This document shows, piece after piece, positions 6,646 through 50,256 of a DNA stretch of 64,000 nucleotides. The translations under genes were made by a program, and so were the position numbers. Position 1 is the first letter of the stretch, and the number at the start of each line of letters is the position of its first letter. Location: NCBI GenBank assembly GCA_031291675.1, contig JARLIO010000034.1, positions 62,001-126,000 on the forward strand, given 5' to 3'. The DNA is from Azospirillaceae bacterium (GTDB lineage Bacteria; Pseudomonadota; Alphaproteobacteria; Azospirillales; Azospirillaceae). The notes under the pieces were generated by a model. That model was not told the origin of the DNA. It did not search any database and worked only from the letters and a program-made list of their open reading frames with translations.

Positions 6646-7053
6646 GCCCAGACTGATACCAACCCGCGATGATCTTCACTCATCGCGGGTTGGGGATCGG
6701 CGGAGACCGCCGCCGCGGCCCGTAGGGGCCGAAGCCTGCGTGGCGTTTGAACGCAACGGTCATTTCTCATGACCGTTGGTATGACATGAGGGGATCGACG
6801 CGCAAAGAGTGCGGTGTATCGGCCGACATCGACGCGATCAAGCGGGCAGATGGTCGTGCCCCGGCACAGAGATCAGGTCCCCGCGGTTGGTCGTTCCGGG
6901 CGTACCCCTGCGCCGCTTCCGTCAAGATCCGGGCGAACGCCGCCTCGGCAATCGGCTCCTCCGCCAGCATTCGCTCTGGCCACACGCGTCGATCGACGAT
7001 AAATCCATGATGGTCTCCGGGCACAATCACGATCCTGACAACGGGGTTCATCA
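6646..7053. other. Intergenic region containing an interspersed repeat
   Basis: No gene is supported. Divergent genes flank it. The left third is occupied by the 131-bp repeat element annotated separately; the remainder should carry the promoter of the glutathione transferase gene, but no clear sigma-70 pair is visible. Confidence 0.4.
6654..6784 (+). repeat. Interspersed palindromic repeat, copy 1 (fullest)
   Basis: The element has inverted ends ATACCAAC (6656-6663) and GTTGGTAT (6775-6782). Its left end folds into a perfect 14-bp hairpin (CCAACCCGCGATGA, loop TCTTCAC, TCATCGCGGGTTGG, 6659-6693). Its right end holds a 9-bp inverted repeat AACGGTCAT / ATGACCGTT. The middle is GC-rich (GACCGCCGCCGCGGCCCG, then GGCCGAAGCCTGCG). 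Related copies lie at 37004-37134 (opposite orientation), 62930-63017 and, as a left-end fragment, 27430-27448. No coding capacity is seen, so it resembles a MITE or REP-like element. Confidence 0.75.
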
Positions 7054-10242: not shown

Positions 10243-11112
10243 TCAGGGCAACAATTCCCCGACCACCGAAATCCGGCGAACCGTCAGCGTCATCGGCGCC
10301 TGCTCACCGAGTTGAGCTGTGACGCGCGCTGTCTGGTCATCAAGGAACGTGACATCGATCGTTCCGGCCTTGCGATCCTCGGCCATCAGCGGGGCCAGGA
10401 AACGCTGCCCCTGCAACGGGCCGTTGGCCGAAAGACGAACACGGCCACCGTCCGCACGCACCGGCGCGACCGCAAGCGAGACCTGGCCGTTGCGGATTTC
10501 GATGCCGTAACCGGCCCCCGGCAATGACGGCGCCCACCAGAACCCCGCCACCGGCACGCCCATCGCGGCGAGCCGGCCGGCCGTCCCGGGGGGCCCGGCA
10601 TCGATATCCGCCCCGACCTCCTGTTGCGGCATCGCCTGCCACGGCAGATCGATCGCGACGCCAGGCCCGGCAATCCGGGCCGCCAGAGCGACCGGGAGGA
10701 TCTCGCCCCCGCCCCCCGCGATCGACCCGGACAGGCTGAACCCGGTTGCCTCCAGCGTGGCACCGGCCGGCATCCGGCTCGGCAGCACAAAATCGACCTG
10801 CGCCCCCTCATCGGCCAGCGTTCCCGAAACCGTCACAGGGGCACGCCCCGAAACGCCGATCATGAGTTGAGGCGGGCGGGCAAAACGCTGCGGTTTGGCG
10901 ATAAACAGCGACATCGCCCCCCGTTGCACCGGGCGATCCAGGGTGACGCGATAGTGAATTGACGCGGGATTGGCCGCAGCGGCGGCGGGACCAGCCGGCG
11001 CGGCCGGGAAATCGGCGGCGGCAACAGCACCCGCGCTCAACCACACGAATGTCGCCAGAACCGACACCACACCGATGGAACGCGCAAAATCAGCAAACAT
11101 TCGGGGCAACAT
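10243..11112 (-). CDS. Exported protein of unknown function
   Basis: 289 residues from the ATG at 11112. The first 32 residues form a signal peptide (MLPRMFADFARSIGVVSVLA... ending AGAVAAA). An Ala/Pro-rich linker follows. The body is predicted to be mostly beta strand. GFWWAPSLPGAGYGIEIRNG (about 196-215) resembles the WW-NP-x-GxGx-IE repeat seen in several secreted proteobacterial proteins. No catalytic motif is recognisable and the neighbours (cobU, a chemoreceptor) do not point to a role. Confidence 0.65.
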   Translation of the reverse strand: MLPRMFADFARSIGVVSVLATFVWLSAGAVAAADFPAAPAGPAAAAANPASIHYRVTLDRPVQRGAMSLFIAKPQRFARPPQLMIGVSGRAPVTVSGTLADEGAQVDFVLPSRMPAGATLEATGFSLSGSIAGGGGEILPVALAARIAGPGVAIDLPWQAMPQQEVGADIDAGPPGTAGRLAAMGVPVAGFWWAPSLPGAGYGIEIRNGQVSLAVAPVRADGGRVRLSANGPLQGQRFLAPLMAEDRKAGTIDVTFLDDQTARVTAQLGEQAPMTLTVRRISVVGELLP

Positions 11113-11695
11113 GACAATTTCCCGGAACAAGGGCGACATCGCAACGCGGTTGGTGGCGCCATGTCGCCAGACATTCAAGCAATAGCCCAAGCAATAAACA
11201 TGCCAGCGATTAAAACAAATCTGCCTTCAGAGGGGTCAAATCGGTCATGGTCTGGGAATTCCGGCAGCTTTTGCCCGGCAAATGTTGCCGAACCCCGGCA
11301 AAAAGGACCCGGCCGCGTTTGGTCTGGAGACGAAATCCGCGCTGGTCGCCCGGGACGCGATGACACCAGGGTGATCGAGCAGCGGGTGGTGCAAGCACCA
11401 GAAGTATCCGCGCACAATTGGTAATACCGGACGCGGGACTCTCTGGATCGGACCGATGCACGATTCATATTGCAAATATTCGACATTCGAATTATGATAA
11501 AAATATGTACGGTTGTGCGCCACACTATCATCAGTCACAGGTTTGCTGACGATATCCGCAACACCGGGGCGGCAGCATCTGCATAAGTTGATAAGATTAC
11601 CAGGATCTCGCCATCGGGCGATTGCGGAAATCCCGATGAAGATGCCACGCTTCCTCGGGACTAAATCAAGAATAACAAGGGGGGGAGACCGGTCG
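11113..11695. other. Intergenic region, divergent promoters
   Basis: 583 bases between divergent genes. No gene is supported. The right part (about 11450-11600) is AT-rich and contains a good sigma-70-like promoter, annotated separately. An imperfect inverted repeat around TTTTGCCCGG ... CCCGGCAAAA (about 11269-11307) could form a hairpin. Confidence 0.4.
11470..11498 (+). promoter_or_regulatory. Candidate sigma-70 promoter of the chemoreceptor gene
   Basis: TTGCAA at 11470-11475 and TATGAT at 11493-11498 are separated by exactly 17 bases in an AT-rich patch. It points toward the chemoreceptor start at 11696, leaving a leader of about 190 bases. Confidence 0.4.
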
Positions 11696-13819
11696 ATGTT
11701 TGCGGCGGTCAACGATATTCGGATACGCAGTCTCGGAACCTGCGTCACTGTGATGTTGATGGTCATCCTGGCCGTCGGTGTCATTGCGTCCGTTTTCCTT
11801 CTCAATGAGATGGGAGTGGTTCGCGGTACCGCGCTGAATCCAAGCAGCGCCGATCAGATCCGGGCGATTGCTTCAGGGATCGACAGCCTGACGGTGATCC
11901 TGAGGATCGCCAGTCTGCTCTATGCGGCGCTGCTGATATCCTTGGCCGGTTTCTTCCTGTGGTTTACCCGGATCCGACTGCAACGGCCGCTGACCGAATT
12001 GGAGGCGGCGATGGTCAGCCTCGCCGCCGGTGATCTGTCCGTCGACATTCCGCGCACCACGCAGCACGATGAAATCGGCGCCATGGCGCGGGCGCTCGAA
12101 GTGTTCAAGCACCACGCCAAGGAATTGACCGGCGTGGCCTCGCTGAAGGCCGCCTCGGAACATGCGATGGCCCAGAAGCGGGAAATGCTGTCGCTGGCCG
12201 ATGCCTTGGAGGGGGAGGTCCGCGGAACCATCGGCGACGTCGTCAGCCAGGGCCGGGGCATGGTCGGTGCCGCCGACGAGATGGGCACGACGATCACCCA
12301 GGTCGCCATGCGCTCCCAGGCCCTGACCTCCTCGACCGATCAGGCCACCAGCAATGTCAACGCGGTGGCCGCGGCAACCGAACAGTTGGCCCTGGCCACG
12401 CTGGATATCGCCGGGAAAATGTCGCGCACCGCTCAGATCTCGGGCGCGGCGGTCGCCCAGGCCAACCAGGCCGATGCCACGATGCGCGAACTCAGCACCG
12501 TGTCGCGGCAGATCGGCGACATCTTGCGCCTGATCAACGACATCGCAACCCAGACCAACCTGCTGGCCCTCAACGCCACGATCGAGGCCGCCCGCGCCGG
12601 CGACGCCGGCCGCGGCTTCGCCGTCGTCGCCAGCGAGGTCAAGATCCTGGCCAACCAGACCACCCTGGCCATCGACGGCATCGCCACGCAAATCCGCAAT
12701 ATCCAGACCGCGACCCTCCGCAGCGCCGGCGCGCTTGAGGCCATCGGACGGACCATCATTGAGGTCAATGAGATCGCCGCCGCGGTCGCAAGCGCCGTCG
12801 AACAGCAGGAGGCGACGACCCGCCAGATCAGTAGCCATGCCCAGGAAGCGGCGATGCGGACCAACGAGGTCGCGGAAACCGTTTCGGCGATCACCAACCA
12901 GATTGGCGCCGCGGGAAAGGTCGCCAGCGGGGTACACACCACTTCGGTGACCGTGACCGGGAAATTGCAGACGATGGAACGCCGGTTGAAATCGATCTTG
13001 CGCCAGTCGATGGAAAACCACCGCACCAACGACCGCAACAATGCCGCCGACATGCCCGCACGGGTCCGGATCCAGAACCGGTTGGTCGCGGGCCAGGTCA
13101 ACGACCTCAATGGCAGCGGCGCCGTCCTCAGCAGCGACGGGTTTCACTGTCCGCCCGGGACCGCGATGGAGTTGACCATCGACGGCTTCGACCCGATTGC
13201 CGCCGTCGCCGTCGCCGACACGCCGCGGGGTCTGCGCGTTGAATTCCGGGTCGACGATATCACCCATGCCAAGCTGTCCAGCTATGCCTATGGTCATGAG
13301 GCCGAGGATCTCCGCTTCGTCACCGCCGTTGAAGCGGGTGCACGGACGGTCGCGACCCTGTTTGAAGAGGCGGTCGCCCGGGGACAGATCACCCTCGACG
13401 ATCTGTTCGACGAACAATATCAGCGGATTGGCAGCACCGAGCCCCCGCAATTCATGACCCGGTTCGTCGCCTTCACCGATCGGGTGTTGCCGCCAATCCA
13501 GGAGCCGATGCTTGATTTCGACCCGCGGGTCGTCTTTTGCGTCGCCGCCGATCGCAACGGCTTCGTTGCCACCCACCACAAGCGCAGTTCCCTGCCGCCG
13601 GGCAAAGATCCGGTCTGGAACGCCGCCAATTGCCGCAACCGCAGGTTCTTCAAGGGCCGCTGCGAATTGGCGGCCGCCCGGAACGCCTCGGGACATCTGC
13701 TCCAGACCTATCTGCGGGAAATGGGTGGTGACGAGGTGATCCTGATGAAGGATGCCTCGGCGCCGATCATCGTCAAGGGGCGTCATTGGGGCGGCTTGCG
13801 CCTGGGCTATCGCTTGTGA
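11696..13819 (+). CDS. Methyl-accepting chemotaxis protein with extra C-terminal sensory region
   Basis: 707-residue chemoreceptor. TM1 is about 15-38, a short periplasmic loop of about 30-40 residues follows, and TM2 ([21 protein letters not shown]) is about 62-85; a HAMP domain follows ([22 protein letters not shown]). The signalling hairpin tip is about 275-320 ([35 protein letters not shown]). After the coiled coil comes a PilZ-like stretch ([21 protein letters not shown]) and a globular end of about 120 residues ending [13 protein letters not shown]. With so small a periplasmic part, sensing is probably cytoplasmic. Start ATG 11696 has a GGGGGAG site nine bases upstream; an upstream in-frame ATG lacks one. 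Confidence 0.9.
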
Positions 13820-23927: not shown

Positions 23928-23969
23928 GAATTTATTCACTTGCGCATTTATCCGTTTTTGAATAAATTT
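23928..23969 (+). promoter_or_regulatory. AT-rich inverted repeat in front of the NTPase pair
   Basis: AATTTATTCA (23929-23938) and TGAATAAATT (23959-23968) are perfect 10-bp inverted copies with 20 bases between them, in a strikingly AT-rich 45-bp patch. The position immediately before the ribosome site of the NTPase operon suggests an operator or promoter. Confidence 0.5.
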
Positions 23970-23995
23970 TGAGGAGGGATAAACGGAGATTCATT

Positions 23996-25144
23996 GTGGA
24001 CCCTCCCCCGCATTCCCGACCCCAGGAACGTCAAGACCTGAAGACCCTCCTCCTGAGCGGGAGCAGTGTGTTGATGTTGGCCCCGCGCCGCATCGGCAAG
24101 ACATGGCTGCTGAAGCGTATCGCCGAGGACATGGCTGCCGCGGGCTGGAACTGCATCCAGCTCGACGTCGAAGGTATGCGAACCGAGGACGAGTTCCTGC
24201 GCGCCCTCTGCCGGGAGATCGAGAAGCAGCAGGACATGGTTCCGCGGCTGCTCGCTCATCTGAGCCAGCGTTTCCGCCAGTTGACAGAGGATTTCGGCAA
24301 GGAAGGCCTGACCGCCGCGATCGGCCGCGTGCCTTCCCGGGAGTTTCTGGAAACCCTGATCGCCTCGCTTGATGGCGAGGGCCGCGATACCCTGATTCTC
24401 ATCGACGAAATCGCGTTGTTCGTCCTCAACCTGGCCCGCCAGGACGCGGAGGCGACGCGGACGATGCTCTATCTGCTCCGCGGCCTGATGCAGCGCTACG
24501 CCAAAGTGCGCTGGTTTCTCACCGGATCGATCGGACTCGATGTCGTGGCGCGCCGCCACAATATGCTCGGCGCGATGCTCGGCTACGACGTCTTTCCGCT
24601 TGAACCCTTCTCCGCCGCAGCGGCCCGGTCCTTCATCGACGACCTGCAACGGGGCGAACTGGCCGCGCGGCCGTTCGACCTGGAGCCGGACGCCTTCGAA
24701 CATTTCACCGTCGAGCTTGGCTGGCTGTCACCCTATTATATCCGCCAGACGATGCGCGTCCTCCAGCCGACCGCCGCAACCAGCGATACCGGCCGGCCCC
24801 GCGCCTCGATCGCCGACATCGAGCGTGCCTTTGCCAAATTGCTGACCCCGCCCCAGCGCCTGCATTTCGTCGCATGGGAGGAGCACATTGCAAAGAATTT
24901 CGAAAAGGTCGATTCTGAACAGCTTTGGGCCATCCTCGATGTTCTCAGCGAGGCTCCCGATGGCGAGATCACGGCAACTTTACAGGCCCGTCTCGCCAAC
25001 GATCACAAAGACCTTGATGCCCGACAGATTCGCGAGCAGTTAACCATTCTGGCGAATGACGGTTATATTCATCAGGTTGATAATCGCTGGCGATTTTTGT
25101 CAGGCCTTCTGAGACGCTTCTGGCAGCAGTACAATCACAAATGA
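23996..25144 (+). CDS. P-loop NTPase with C-terminal winged helix (first of a pair)
   Basis: 382 residues from GTG 23996, eight bases behind GGAG; a TTG at 23969 is an alternative. Walker A is LAPRRIGKTWLLKR (29-42), Walker B is TLILIDEIALF (about 131-141), and FLTGSIGL with the segment GYDVFPLEPFS matches the archaeal-type (COG1672) AAA/STAND ATPases. The last 100 residues look like a winged helix (ITATLQARLANDHKDLDARQ, ILANDGYIHQ). Its stop overlaps the next gene's ATG (ATGA). Function unknown; such ATPases act as regulators or in conflict systems. Confidence 0.8.
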   Translation: MDPPPHSRPQERQDLKTLLLSGSSVLMLAPRRIGKTWLLKRIAEDMAAAGWNCIQLDVEGMRTEDEFLRALCREIEKQQDMVPRLLAHLSQRFRQLTEDFGKEGLTAAIGRVPSREFLETLIASLDGEGRDTLILIDEIALFVLNLARQDAEATRTMLYLLRGLMQRYAKVRWFLTGSIGLDVVARRHNMLGAMLGYDVFPLEPFSAAAARSFIDDLQRGELAARPFDLEPDAFEHFTVELGWLSPYYIRQTMRVLQPTAATSDTGRPRASIADIERAFAKLLTPPQRLHFVAWEEHIAKNFEKVDSEQLWAILDVLSEAPDGEITATLQARLANDHKDLDARQIREQLTILANDGYIHQVDNRWRFLSGLLRRFWQQYNHK

Positions 25145-27432
25145 CGATGTTACCCGGGATCAATCTGTACACGCAAGACAATCTCAGCGACGAGAATTTC
25201 GTCGGGAATTTCGTCGCGCGACGCGCGTTGCTGGACATTTTGTTGAATGGTCTTCGGGCCTTGGTGCGCGACGGCGAGGTCCAGCATTCCATCCTGATCG
25301 GCGCACGGGGCATGGGGAAGTCGTCCCTGCTGCGCCGCCTCGCCATCGCGGTGAAGGCGGACGAGCAACTCCAGACGCATTTCCTTCCCTTGCGCTTCCG
25401 CGAGGAGCAATACAACGTCATTTCGCTCGACAGCTTCTGGCGCAATTGTGGCGAGGCCCTTGCCGACTGGTGTGACGGCGCCGGCCTCGGTGAGACGGCC
25501 GCCGCCCTCGACCGCGCCATTGACTCCGCGACGTGGCGCGATCCAGAGGGCGCGGGCGCAGAATTTCATGCCGCCTGCGCCCGCCTGGGCCGGCGGCCGC
25601 TGCTTCTGCTGGACAATCTCGACCTCGTTCTCGACGGCTTGAAAGAAAATGACGGCTGGAAGCTTCGGCGTGCCCTGCAGGCGCCGGATGGACCGGTGGT
25701 CATCGGCGCGGCAACGCGGCTGCTGCAGCAGGCCGGCGATCGCGAGGCGCCGTTCTACGAATTCTTCCATCCAGTCATGCTGGAACCCCTGACCGAGGTC
25801 GAGCTGACGCAGTGCCTGACTGCGCTGGCCGCGATGCGCGGCGCGGCCGGTGCGCCGGTCCGGGCGATCCTGGCCCGCGAACCGGAGCGGCTGGCCACGC
25901 TCTATACCCTGACCGGCGGGAACCCGCGGATCCTCGCCTTGATCTACCAACTGCTCGAGCGCGTCGAGAGCGAAACGGTCTTCGCCGATCTTGGGATTCT
26001 GCTCGATCAGGTGACCCCCTTCTATAAGGCCCGTATCGAGGAATACCAGACAGCCCAGCAACGCGCCGTGATCGACGCGATCGCGCTCAACTGGGACCCG
26101 ATCACTTCCAATGCCCTCGCGACGGCCACCGGGATTGAGATCACGACCATTTCATCACAGCTTAACCGGCTGAAAAAGGATGGCCTGGTCGAGGAGGTGT
26201 CGACCTCCGGCACCCGGTCGGGCTATCAGCTCGCCGAGCGCTTCCTCAACATCTGGTACCTGATGCGCCACGGTACGCGCCGAACCAAATTGCGGCTGCG
26301 CTGGCTGACGATTGTGCTCAGCAAGCTTTTTACGCCCGACGAACTGGGACGCCTCGCGGCCGAGGCTCGCGACGAGAACCGGGCTTGTCAATGGCACCCC
26401 GACGATCGCATCGCGGTGATCGAAGCCTTCGCCGAGGTCGCCGCAGAGCCGCGGTCTCTCGGAGACCGCGCGCTCACCCGGATTGCCGATCCTGGGCTGC
26501 CTTCGTTCGACGTGACGGGAACCGCGGCGACGACACACCAACAAATTCCCACTTCAGAACAGATGGCGGCACGGACGCTCGCGCTTGAAGCCATCCGTCT
26601 CCGAAAGGCGGGCAATCACAATGATGCGCTCGTCATTTGCGACCAACTGATCGAGCGCTTCGGCTCGTCGACGGAACTCACGATCCAGGAAGCGGTCGCG
26701 CTCGCTCTACTGAACAAAGCCGCTGTACTGGACTCCCTTGGAAGAAGCGAGGAGGCTCTCGCCAGTTACGACGCGGTGGTGGCACGGTTCGGCGTGTTAC
26801 AGGCGTCGAACCTGCGGAAATATATCGAGGCTGCGATCGTCGGTCAGGGGAACACCCTCTATGATCAGCTCGAACAACCCGACGCCGCCGCGAAAGTCTA
26901 TCGACGCGGGCTCGAAATGGGGCTCGACGCAACGGTCTTGAATACCAACCTCGCCTGGGCGCTGCTTGCCACCGATCGGATCGATGAGGCACGGGCCCTA
27001 GAGGCGGAGCTCTCAGAGCTTGATGCGGAGGGGCTGTCGCTGCTGCGCGCCGGTCTTGCCGTCGCGCGCGATAATCTCGGCGATGCGTTCGACCATCTTG
27101 GCAACGCGCTCGAAACCGGGCTCGACCCCGACACCTCGAAATTCTTCGATGATCTGCTGCGGCTGTTGCGGATCGCTACGGCGCACGGCCATGGCGAGCG
27201 GCTTCTCGCGTGGTGGCAGGCCAGCCCCCCCTATGCCGACCGATACTTGCCCGTCCTTGGCGCGTTTAACGCTTACCTGCGCGGAGAACGGTTCCTGCTC
27301 GATCTCGCGCCGGAGATCCGACGCCCGGCCCAGTTGCTCCTGGAGAGGCTATCGCCGCGGCGAAGGCGAGCCGAAAGCAGCACCCCTGCTTCGAAGCGGC
27401 GAGGACGTCCCCGCAAGCGACCGAACGCCTGA
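25141..27432 (+). CDS. STAND-like NTPase with C-terminal repeat region (second of a pair)
   Basis: 763 residues. The N-terminal P-loop module has Walker A LIGARGMGKSSLL (52-64), Walker B LLLLDNLDLVL (about 153-163) and a sensor-like TGGNPRILALIY (about 258-270). A winged helix follows (about 320-350, SNALATATGIEITTISSQLN, then a RLKKDGLVEE wing). Residues about 480-690 are helical repeats, TPR-like (LEAIRLRKAGNHNDALVICD, RSEEALASYDAVVARFG), and the end is a Lys/Arg-rich tail. The plan NTPase-wHTH-TPR recalls STAND regulators. It is translationally coupled to the first NTPase gene. The stop TGA belongs to a repeat sequence shared with other loci. Confidence 0.8.
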   Translation: MTMLPGINLYTQDNLSDENFVGNFVARRALLDILLNGLRALVRDGEVQHSILIGARGMGKSSLLRRLAIAVKADEQLQTHFLPLRFREEQYNVISLDSFWRNCGEALADWCDGAGLGETAAALDRAIDSATWRDPEGAGAEFHAACARLGRRPLLLLDNLDLVLDGLKENDGWKLRRALQAPDGPVVIGAATRLLQQAGDREAPFYEFFHPVMLEPLTEVELTQCLTALAAMRGAAGAPVRAILAREPERLATLYTLTGGNPRILALIYQLLERVESETVFADLGILLDQVTPFYKARIEEYQTAQQRAVIDAIALNWDPITSNALATATGIEITTISSQLNRLKKDGLVEEVSTSGTRSGYQLAERFLNIWYLMRHGTRRTKLRLRWLTIVLSKLFTPDELGRLAAEARDENRACQWHPDDRIAVIEAFAEVAAEPRSLGDRALTRIADPGLPSFDVTGTAATTHQQIPTSEQMAARTLALEAIRLRKAGNHNDALVICDQLIERFGSSTELTIQEAVALALLNKAAVLDSLGRSEEALASYDAVVARFGVLQASNLRKYIEAAIVGQGNTLYDQLEQPDAAAKVYRRGLEMGLDATVLNTNLAWALLATDRIDEARALEAELSELDAEGLSLLRAGLAVARDNLGDAFDHLGNALETGLDPDTSKFFDDLLRLLRIATAHGHGERLLAWWQASPPYADRYLPVLGAFNAYLRGERFLLDLAPEIRRPAQLLLERLSPRRRRAESSTPASKRRGRPRKRPNA

Positions 27433-27448
27433 TACCAATCCGCGATGA
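27430..27448 (+). repeat. Interspersed palindromic repeat, left-end fragment (copy 2)
   Basis: TGATACCAATCCGCGATGA differs at one base from the left end of copy 1 (6654-6672). Its first three bases are the stop codon of the second NTPase gene. The rest of the element is not present here. Confidence 0.6.
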
Positions 27449-47934: not shown

Positions 47935-49023
47935 TCAGGCACCGTGGAAATCCAGCCGTACCGCCATCTCCTGCGCGGTCAGCGGGAAATCGACGCCGTC
48001 GCGGGCGTTCAGCAGCGCGCGCGGCGACACCTTGGCGCCGCGGAGCTGAAGGTCCATCGCGCAGCGCATGCTGAGGCCAGCGCGCCAAGCCAAGGCGGTG
48101 ACACCCTTGGCATCCCGGGTCGCAAAGATCCGGTCGACCACCGTCGGGGCCACGCGCGCCAAGACACCCAGCGCCGCCCGGACAAAGTCCAGATCGGCCC
48201 AGGCCAGGGCGTCGCCAATCACGGTCTCATCAAGGCCGCCGACCGCGTGCAACCGCAATGCGCGCATCGTCGCCGGTTCGTCGGGGCGCTGCTCGTCAAG
48301 CCAGCGCAGACGCCGCTGCGTCGTGACCACGATCTCGGTTGCCAGATCATCCGGCATGTCGCGCCCCTGCGCCAGCACCGACCGGATCGCCCGGTCGACG
48401 AAGCCGCTCAGATGGGCCCGCACCTCGGCCGATAACCACACCGTGTGCGGCGAATTCGCCTCCACGCCCGCCGCGCCGGCCATCCCCGGTGTCGACGACG
48501 GTGCCAACGCCGCGACGACCTGGCCGTGATTGTCCAGCAACAGGCTGTGGCGCGACCCCGCATGGTCGTCGGCCGGCCCGGGACCAGCGCCGTCACCAGG
48601 GAGCCGCAGAATGGCGGCCGGCTTCGCCGCCTTGGTCATCGGCACCGCCAGCGCGACCGCCAGCAGATCGTCATCACTGATCGTGGCATAGCATTCCAGC
48701 ATCGAATCGGTGATGCTGTGCCGCAACTCGACCGCCAGCACCCGGCAGATTGCGCTGGGATAGCGGGCGATATCGCGCAGCGCCGAGGTCAGCGCGGCGC
48801 CGATCGCGCTGACCCGGTCACGGGCAGCATGCTCCAGGGCCAGCGTGACAAAGGCATACCGATAGTACCGTTCCTCGGCGTCGCGGTCCGGCATCAGGCA
48901 ATGCAGACGATCAGCCACGAGCTGGCGAACACCGTTGTGGCGTTCGGAGGTCGGCGGCGCGATAACAGGTGGCGACGGCGGCGGCTTGACCGGCCTCCGC
49001 AAACCCAGTGCGGTTCTTCGCAT
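47935..49023 (-). CDS. DUF2336 domain protein
   Basis: 362 residues from ATG 49023 with AAGGGCGAAG upstream. The N-terminal half is helical (ERYYRYAFVTLALEHAARDR, ISDDDLLAVALAVPM). The C-terminal part contains GVTALAWRAGLSMRCAMDLQ and the end VDFPLTAQEMAVRLDFH, matching the DUF2336 family found in alphaproteobacteria. Some relatives work with PilZ or CheY-like signalling but no function is established. Its Pro-rich start may be disordered. Confidence 0.75.
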   Translation of the reverse strand: MRRTALGLRRPVKPPPSPPVIAPPTSERHNGVRQLVADRLHCLMPDRDAEERYYRYAFVTLALEHAARDRVSAIGAALTSALRDIARYPSAICRVLAVELRHSITDSMLECYATISDDDLLAVALAVPMTKAAKPAAILRLPGDGAGPGPADDHAGSRHSLLLDNHGQVVAALAPSSTPGMAGAAGVEANSPHTVWLSAEVRAHLSGFVDRAIRSVLAQGRDMPDDLATEIVVTTQRRLRWLDEQRPDEPATMRALRLHAVGGLDETVIGDALAWADLDFVRAALGVLARVAPTVVDRIFATRDAKGVTALAWRAGLSMRCAMDLQLRGAKVSPRALLNARDGVDFPLTAQEMAVRLDFHGA

Positions 49024-49110
49024 CACTTCGCCCTTGTGTCCGACGGTCGTTTCAACCGACGTCCCGGCATTGTAGCCGGGTGTGGTGCCTTGACACAATG
49101 TTGCTGGTCA

Positions 49111-49407
49111 TTACCGAACACCCGGCGCCGACGGCAAGGCGGGCGTCGGCCGTGGCCCCAGAGCCTTCTCTCGCTGCCGCGCCTCTTTCGTATGGATTCG
49201 TTTCATCGCGGCGACAATATCAAACCCGAGGATCTTGTTGGCGCATTTCCGGCTACAAAACCGACCCAGGTTGACCCAGTCCGGCCATTCACCGTCCGGT
49301 AGCGGAGAACCCGACAGGCTGATCATCCGGGAGACATCAACAATATTAAATATTTCGTTATTCTCGCACCTGTTCACGTCGCAATCCAGGGGCAAAACGA
49401 AGGCCAT
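49111..49407 (-). CDS. Small Cys-containing protein, unknown
   Basis: 98 residues. Two Cys pairs, DCDVNRCEN near residue 8-16 and RFCSRKCANKILG near 49-61, could bind a metal. The C-terminal third is basic. No family is recognised and the ribosome site is weak, so it is only a candidate. It precedes the DUF2336 gene on the same strand. Confidence 0.4.
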   Translation of the reverse strand: MAFVLPLDCDVNRCENNEIFNIVDVSRMISLSGSPLPDGEWPDWVNLGRFCSRKCANKILGFDIVAAMKRIHTKEARQREKALGPRPTPALPSAPGVR

Positions 49408-49929
49408 GCCGAATCGCGCGCGGGTACAAAGGAGCCATCGAAAAATAAAATACCTCCATTGTCCTATCTATATTAAATTTTCTTCTACAATTTCTTATTT
49501 ACTATAACAATACCGCAACCGTAATAAAATTTATAACCAATACCGAAATCTGCCATAAAATCAGCAATCACCATTTTTAACATTTCAATTTTTACAGGCC
49601 AGAGTCTTCCAACATAATTGCCAATCACGTCCTCTTCGCCCTGCCATTACTGGGCAGACTCGATTCTCATGCCCCAGAGCATCTGATCTTTTTTTATGAT
49701 ACTGACGGGATCGCCAACTGCGGCAAAACTCCCATCGCCCATCAACGCCACGACCAGCAAAACCGCTGGCGCGACGATGACAGGAAGAAAACGGGAAAAC
49801 CGCTTGCGACCCTTGTTCAAGGGCGTCACTCCGTCTCGTTCAGTGCCTTGGTTGGCGACCCTTATCGAGCATTTTTAGCGTAACCACATGAGATAAACAA
49901 CTCATGGTAACAACCCTTATCCGAACACG
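49408..49929. other. AT-rich, gene-poor stretch
   Basis: Between about 49430 and 49620 the sequence is very AT-rich compared with the rest of the window, with runs such as AATAAAATAC and TATATTAAATTTT. No gene of normal coding character is visible there. A candidate small exported protein lies at its right end. Confidence 0.5.
49647..49829 (-). CDS. Candidate small exported peptide
   Basis: 60 codons from GTG: a basic start (TPLNKGRKRFSRF), a hydrophobic segment (LPVIVAPAVLLVVALMGDG) and a short tail. It looks like a signal peptide plus about 30 residues. There is no homology known to me and an overlapping frame exists on the other strand. It sits in the AT-rich patch. Confidence 0.3.
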   Translation of the reverse strand: MTPLNKGRKRFSRFLPVIVAPAVLLVVALMGDGSFAAVGDPVSIIKKDQMLWGMRIESAQ

Positions 49930-50256
49930 TCAGCCCCATTTCGCACCATCGGCCCGGTCAAGGGGCGTCACCGCCAACGTTTCCTCGCCCAGCCATTCGC
50001 CGGTGGCGCTGAGATGAATAACACGCAGTGGCTGTAGCCGGTGTTCGCGTTCGCCGGTTGTCTGTCGCCGCCGCGGATCATCCTTCGGTAACGGCATTCC
50101 CCGATACGGGTGCGGCTCGGCGCTCGTCGGGTGGCCGGACGGCGCCGGCACAGGGGGCGGCGCGGCGGCGCGCCTCCTGATCAATGTCACGAATCGCGGC
50201 GCATCGGTCGTCCCGAACAAGAAGCCCGGGGCACGCGCCATCCCGGCCACGATCAC
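49930..50256 (-). CDS. Small hypothetical protein downstream of zapE
   Basis: 108 codons; the C-terminal half (LQPLRVIHLSATGEWLGEET) has a plausible protein-like composition, the first half is Pro/Arg-rich. It is on the same strand as zapE, 67 bases after its stop. An alternative Met is at codon 6. No family is recognised. Confidence 0.35.
   Translation of the reverse strand: MIVAGMARAPGFLFGTTDAPRFVTLIRRRAAAPPPVPAPSGHPTSAEPHPYRGMPLPKDDPRRRQTTGEREHRLQPLRVIHLSATGEWLGEETLAVTPLDRADGAKWG

Follow-up and report, generated by a model that had tools for sequence, protein, structure and literature searches.

What does a coupled pair of P-loop NTPase genes do where its neighbours are a LysE gene and an MscS gene? 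The window analysed here is the whole stretch of 64,000 nucleotides from an Azospirillaceae bacterium (assembly GCA_031291675.1, contig JARLIO010000034.1, positions 62,001 to 126,000), and the two genes, their parts and the array discussed below lie on the forward strand. The initial annotation had read the two genes, here called A and B, as a possible undescribed conflict or signalling module. Its description of the locus proved accurate: both genes encode P-loop NTPases, they overlap at an ATGA stop/start that implies translational coupling (25141–25144), and LysE and MscS genes flank them.

Gene A (23996–25144) encodes a 382-aa P-loop ATPase of the order NBD-HD-winged helix, similar to ATPase_2 proteins, with PRRIGKT as Walker A and LILIDE as Walker B. 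The GTG at 23996 is its likely start codon, because the longer TTG start (23969) falls inside the repeat array described below and a GGAG lies 7 bases 5′ of the GTG. Pfam families AAA_35, AAA_22, and AAA_14 match the protein, and the ATPase_2 score of 14.9 bits is below the gathering threshold of 33.2. The AlphaFold2 (AF2) model (pLDDT 92.6) is a bare NBD-HD-winged-helix core whose best solved counterparts are 2qen (Z 23.2) and 2fna (Z 22.5) over 320 residues, followed by apoptosome-type cores (wheat, CED-4, NLR) at Z 18–20 and then by Orc proteins; a profile comparison also leads to 2fna (E 7e-9). The domain order is thus that of the archaeal ATPase_2-type Walker ATPases represented by 2qen and 2fna, from which A differs in being almost always coupled to a TPR-bearing partner as well as in its score under the ATPase_2 threshold.

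Gene B (25141–27432) encodes a 763-aa STAND-type NTPase with a MarR-like winged helix and a TPR sensor, matched in Pfam by AAA_16, MarR_2, and TPR families. Its Walker A is GARGMGKS and its Walker B reads LLLLDN. The AF2 model (pLDDT 85.3) is arranged as NBD-HD-winged helix-TPR, in which the winged helix, a proposed DNA-binding domain, spans residues ∼300–376 (26038–26268) with the recognition helix around T335, and the TPR sensor, also delineated by Pfam, spans residues ∼472–745 (26554–27375). Both the model and the structure matches contain the STAND NOD core, an NBD-HD followed by a winged-helix domain, and the GxP motif of the HD is G260-N261-P262, of which G260 and P262 are invariant in 40 sequences. 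The top Foldseek match is 6mfv (PH0952, a STAND protein with a TPR sensor), with DNA-bound Orc1/Cdc6 structures next in line; the TPR part best matches MalT domain III (1hz4, Z 16.0), repeats of this kind scoring high with many proteins. Pfam, models, and fold matches therefore agree with what had been read from the letters, namely a compact ATPase with a winged-helix end followed by a STAND-like NTPase-wHTH-TPR protein.

B fits the published definition of the STAND-TPR architecture except that an effector domain is missing (PMC6468293). TPRs were found in about 58–60 of 75 B relatives, and the C-termini of these relatives vary greatly in length. Pfam identified no effector domain in B, nor do the main families of the 75 C-termini include one, and no toxin domain was found in either A or B, as the initial annotation had noted; A may itself be the effector of the STAND module. 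With PH0952 and MalT, B has in common the NBD-HD-WHD order, the GxP motif, and the TPR sensor, but a separate effector domain and a LuxR domain are both missing from it, a second ATPase is coupled to it, and it comes with a 16-bp array of its own. Avs and bacterial NLR-like defence proteins share the NBD core fold with the pair (Avs3 8dgc and EfAvs5 9jap are among the matches) and the STAND switch logic, whereas A and B are split over two genes and neither begins with a nuclease, SIR2, or other effector domain.

A species-level genome scan with the B core yielded 343 relatives, and the analysis continued with 80 of these loci. In 75 of them B is preceded, on its own strand, by an A homologue, in unrelated contexts, which answers the call of the initial annotation for a search for conserved co-occurrence. 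The geometry is that of co-transcription: for 66 of the 71 pairs called, A and B are spaced by −55 to +32 bp, and 26 of the 71 overlap by 4 bp and 11 by 8 bp. Five loci have no A match; in two of them (L104 and L107) a short B is accompanied by the degraded remains of A, and three (L073, L074, and L101) have no such remains. In all 10 further loci picked by protein model alone, A again precedes B (L140 duplicates L092). The loci span Alpha-, Beta-, and Gammaproteobacteria, Desulfobacterota-type lineages, Acidobacteriota, Chlorobiota, Bacteroidota, Planctomycetota, Myxococcota, and SAR324. Across them no fixed third gene recurs beside the pair, the flanks are unrelated, no integrase, relaxase, or Rep gene is conserved next to it, and no homologues of A or B were found in phage or viral collections. 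In Chlorobiaceae (L093, L104, L107, L108, and L112) the pair often adjoins type I restriction methylase genes, and several of these copies are decaying, with A split or reduced to a remnant and B shortened.

Within the family of the window, the B core is present in six of 82 genomes, a seventh match (G079) being to TPRs only, so that the pair does not occupy a fixed housekeeping locus in all relatives. A was detected in six of 385 Alphaproteobacteria species and B in six of 398 Pseudomonadota species. The genome of the window itself contains two further, divergent A-B pairs (L023 and L024; G000:C43:24091-26701 and G000:C88:266099-267247). The MscS flank gene occurs in 75 of 82 family genomes, and the pair is not conserved in this way; no base-level empty site was found, as LysE and MscS are adjacent in no other genome among the 82 of the family. 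The codon-use comparison with neighbours that had been proposed revealed only a slight difference (GC3 of 0.76 for A and B vs. 0.78–0.87). Elsewhere in the window, local GC dips to 0.514 at 49001–50000 and 0.555 at 11001–12000, vs. about 0.64 in the rest. The A-B pair is a conserved, coupled, and mobile two-gene unit of rare and patchy occurrence.

At the right-hand end, the repeat fragment recorded at the B stop codon is real: TGATACCAATCCGCGATGA at 27430–27448 is found again at 6654–6672, and the genome holds 16 copies at ≤2 mismatches vs. none for reversed controls. Two TGATACCAATCCGCGATGA copies at C36:79673–79717 face each other, which suggests a small palindromic repeat element.

The left-hand end had been described as an AT-rich border of 45 bp with a perfect 10-bp inverted repeat. 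The repeat stands, but the border does not. Four palindromic units with a 16-bp period (GAATTTATTCACTTGC, GCATTTATCCGTTTTT, GAATAAATTTTGAGGA, and GGGATAAACGGAGATT) occupy 23928–23991, starting at 23928, 23944, 23960, and 23976, and the inverted repeat (23929–23938 and 23959–23968) consists of units 1 and 3. An insertion border was rejected as an explanation of this patch, since relatives whose flanks are unrelated carry this array in front of A as well. For scoring, an array was treated as three palindromes of 10 bp repeated at one fixed period, and periods from 11 to 26 were compared. The window array scores 30 vs. a shuffle mean of 19.1, and none of 100 shuffles scored as high. Over the loci, the mean score is 28.2 at period 16 and about 19–21 at every other period. 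Of the 69 A-upstream regions, 58% reach a score of at least 28, compared with 1.1% of 439 regions upstream of neighbouring genes; at the other periods tested, 1–6% do so. Several misses are wrong start calls (L050, L080, and L083), and a minority of pairs has no recognisable array. We therefore interpret the patch, from its sequence, as a conserved cis-regulatory array belonging to the A-B pair and propose it as the operator of the pair.

The half-sites of the array differ across lineages (GAAT/ATTC, GTTGT/ACAAC, and GTATA/TATAC). Among the 10 later loci, six carry the array, with none of 200 shuffles as good, and their half-sites are new, including GTCGT/ACGAC and CAGAT/ATCTG; a pair on a Segatella plasmid has an array as well. 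The two additional pairs of the window genome, L023 and L024, each have a different, weak 16-bp array upstream (5 and 1 of 200 shuffles as good, respectively). The pattern of the window array occurs just once in the 5.87-Mb genome when up to 3 mismatches are allowed, and the control it exerts would therefore be of the pair itself. In several relatives, TTGACA-like −35 and TATATT-like −10 elements were recognised by eye within the array, a placement that suggests repression; a sigma-70 promoter scan of the window returned nothing that passed. In viral contigs the operator pattern was found in five AT-rich contigs, with A or B near none of them, and most of these look like chance. One IMG/VR contig (L124, 4870–4910) repeats GAATATATTC every 16 bp, with two exact units and a partial third, and A and B are absent from the 5 kb around it that were covered.

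Is the pair then part of a conflict system? PADLOC-DB 2.0.0 and NCBIfam 20.0 contain no specific model for A or B and gave weak P-loop, wHTH, or TPR matches; PHROGs gave weak generic matches only, and the mad8 model matches two of 53 A relatives (best 3e-7). Searches of open-access literature found no description of the pair, of a 16-bp array, or of a STAND regulator of Bil, and the main text of DefensePredictor names no matching pair. The folds of A and B are known, and the pair with its array is without a model in the libraries searched and without a description in open-access text, in agreement with its earlier designation as undescribed. The conflict reading of the initial annotation is partly supported, as the pair is coupled and mobile and some relatives lie beside known anti-phage genes; the supposed insertion border no longer counts in its favour.

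The neighbours concerned are not homologues of A or B but belong to Bil, Pycsar, Qat, and Avs4 systems. The solo B genes of L073 and L074 are divergent from an operon with E1-like ThiF proteins (PF00899), and in L074 the proteins of this operon match BilD E1 (1.4e-12) and BilC DUB (1.3e-9) of the Bil anti-phage system. On Agrobacterium plasmids (L020 3268–7781 and L136 4328–8841), the genes of a Prok-E2/ThiF fusion and of two nucleotide cyclases form an operon that runs divergently from a B relative and resembles a cyclase system equipped with parts for ubiquitin-like conjugation. The B relative of a Sphingobium plasmid has a Pycsar effector and a cyclase as its neighbours. In Moraxella osloensis, plasmid-borne A-B pairs are found either next to Qat genes or ahead of an overlapping gene, the product of which matches Avs4 at its N-terminus (1.7e-42). 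In one of these plasmids (L138 7122–14253), the gene with the Avs4-like N-terminus overlaps the end of B, and another large ATPase gene comes next. PADLOC matched 60 families in 126 proteins near the pair vs. 13 in 110 distal ones; these are counts of families, not of proteins, and the excess is no more than suggestive of a link to defence.

Across the 80 related loci the neighbours are mostly ordinary, housekeeping-type genes, which leaves room for a different role, that of a MalT-like sensor-regulator of endogenous physiology in which B would sense a metabolite or host protein through its TPRs, the pair would tune some process of the host, and B would regulate its own operon with no part in conflict. 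The resemblance of the TPR part of B to MalT domain III is in keeping with such a role, and transcription activators do occur among bacterial STANDs (PMC6468293). We nevertheless regard it as unlikely: an operator that is unique in its genome leaves no regulon to control, and the patchy presence of A and B among the species surveyed, carriage on plasmids, and Bil, Pycsar, Qat, or Avs4-like neighbours all argue against it. An anti-invader outcome, which we infer from genomic context, appears reasonably probable.

Which protein binds the array? The winged helix of many STANDs, for example in Apaf-1 and NLRs, is structural rather than a DNA binder, and A too has a C-terminal winged helix. The array could accordingly be a target of A or of a host transcription factor, the winged helix of B serving structure only, in a conflict system under ordinary host control. 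We consider this reading unlikely, and three observations argue against it. The first is that, of the two pairs in the genome of Contendobacter SB13, one has a class II array (L071) and the other a class I array (L113); half-site class thus differs within one genome, and specificity therefore seems to be encoded by the module and to travel with it. Furthermore, the array is kept in genomes that have B only: in the Burkholderiales Ramlibacter (L073) and Curvibacter (L074), B occurs with a 16-bp array and A was found nowhere in the genome. None of 500 shuffles is as good as the L074 array, and the L073 array passes only when scored over four units (1 of 500). This retention of B and array where A is absent points to B as the binder. 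Finally, the winged helix of A is associated with half-site class at the mean level of A, with no excess.

A further pointer to B is that its association with half-site class peaks in the winged-helix windows (0.247 from residue 301 and 0.222 from residue 331; mean 0.138), an association that is confounded by phylogeny and that was not significant in a phylogeny-aware test of winged helix against half-site, with only 3 independent pairs. At the start of the recognition helix, T335 is a threonine in 28 of 30 class I proteins vs. one of 25 class II proteins, and the class I B proteins come from two well-separated B clades. Autoregulation through the winged helix of B is likely and is the best-supported of the steps that we infer. 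Far less probable is an ORC/Cdc6-like or replicon-type initiator pair with the array as an iteron-like loading site for mobile-element maintenance or replication rather than an operator: although the sites stand in tandem, A and B match Orc1/Cdc6 folds from archaea, some of which were solved on origin DNA, and B shares AAA+ plus winged helix with initiators of DNA-bound structure (2qby and 2v1u), B has a TPR sensor, the array sits at the operon promoter and directly abuts the A start codon, and the pairs are single in chromosomes amid unrelated genes, with no replicon context and no conserved integrase, relaxase, or Rep gene.

On balance, we favour the reading of A and B as one mobile, self-regulated module in which B would sense through its TPRs and autoregulate through its winged helix, with A as partner ATPase. 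In the resting state, B, acting as a STAND-type switch, would sit on the 16-bp-period array via its winged helix and hold the operon low. A signal on the variable TPR domain, most likely an invader- or stress-derived protein, would flip the nucleotide state of B, which would then leave the DNA or be remodelled on it and form an active oligomer with A. With its intact Walker B Asp-Glu and its bare NBD-HD-winged-helix core, A could be the working partner that executes the response, a role that we consider plausible.

More tentatively, the B family as a whole may represent plug-in immune regulators that combine an invader sensor and a DNA-bound repressor in one protein, are insulated copy from copy by fast-diversifying operator arrays, and are coupled to various response genes, mostly A and in some genomes Bil or cyclase operons. 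A-B modules, and possibly similarly controlled defence operons, can be located through the array, a practical DNA tag that needs no protein search. If the proposal is true, a single gene would tie the detection of invaders by a TPR STAND directly to transcriptional control, with the diversifying 16-bp array as the link to the immune operon, and B would be the bacterial equivalent of an NLR seated on its own promoter.
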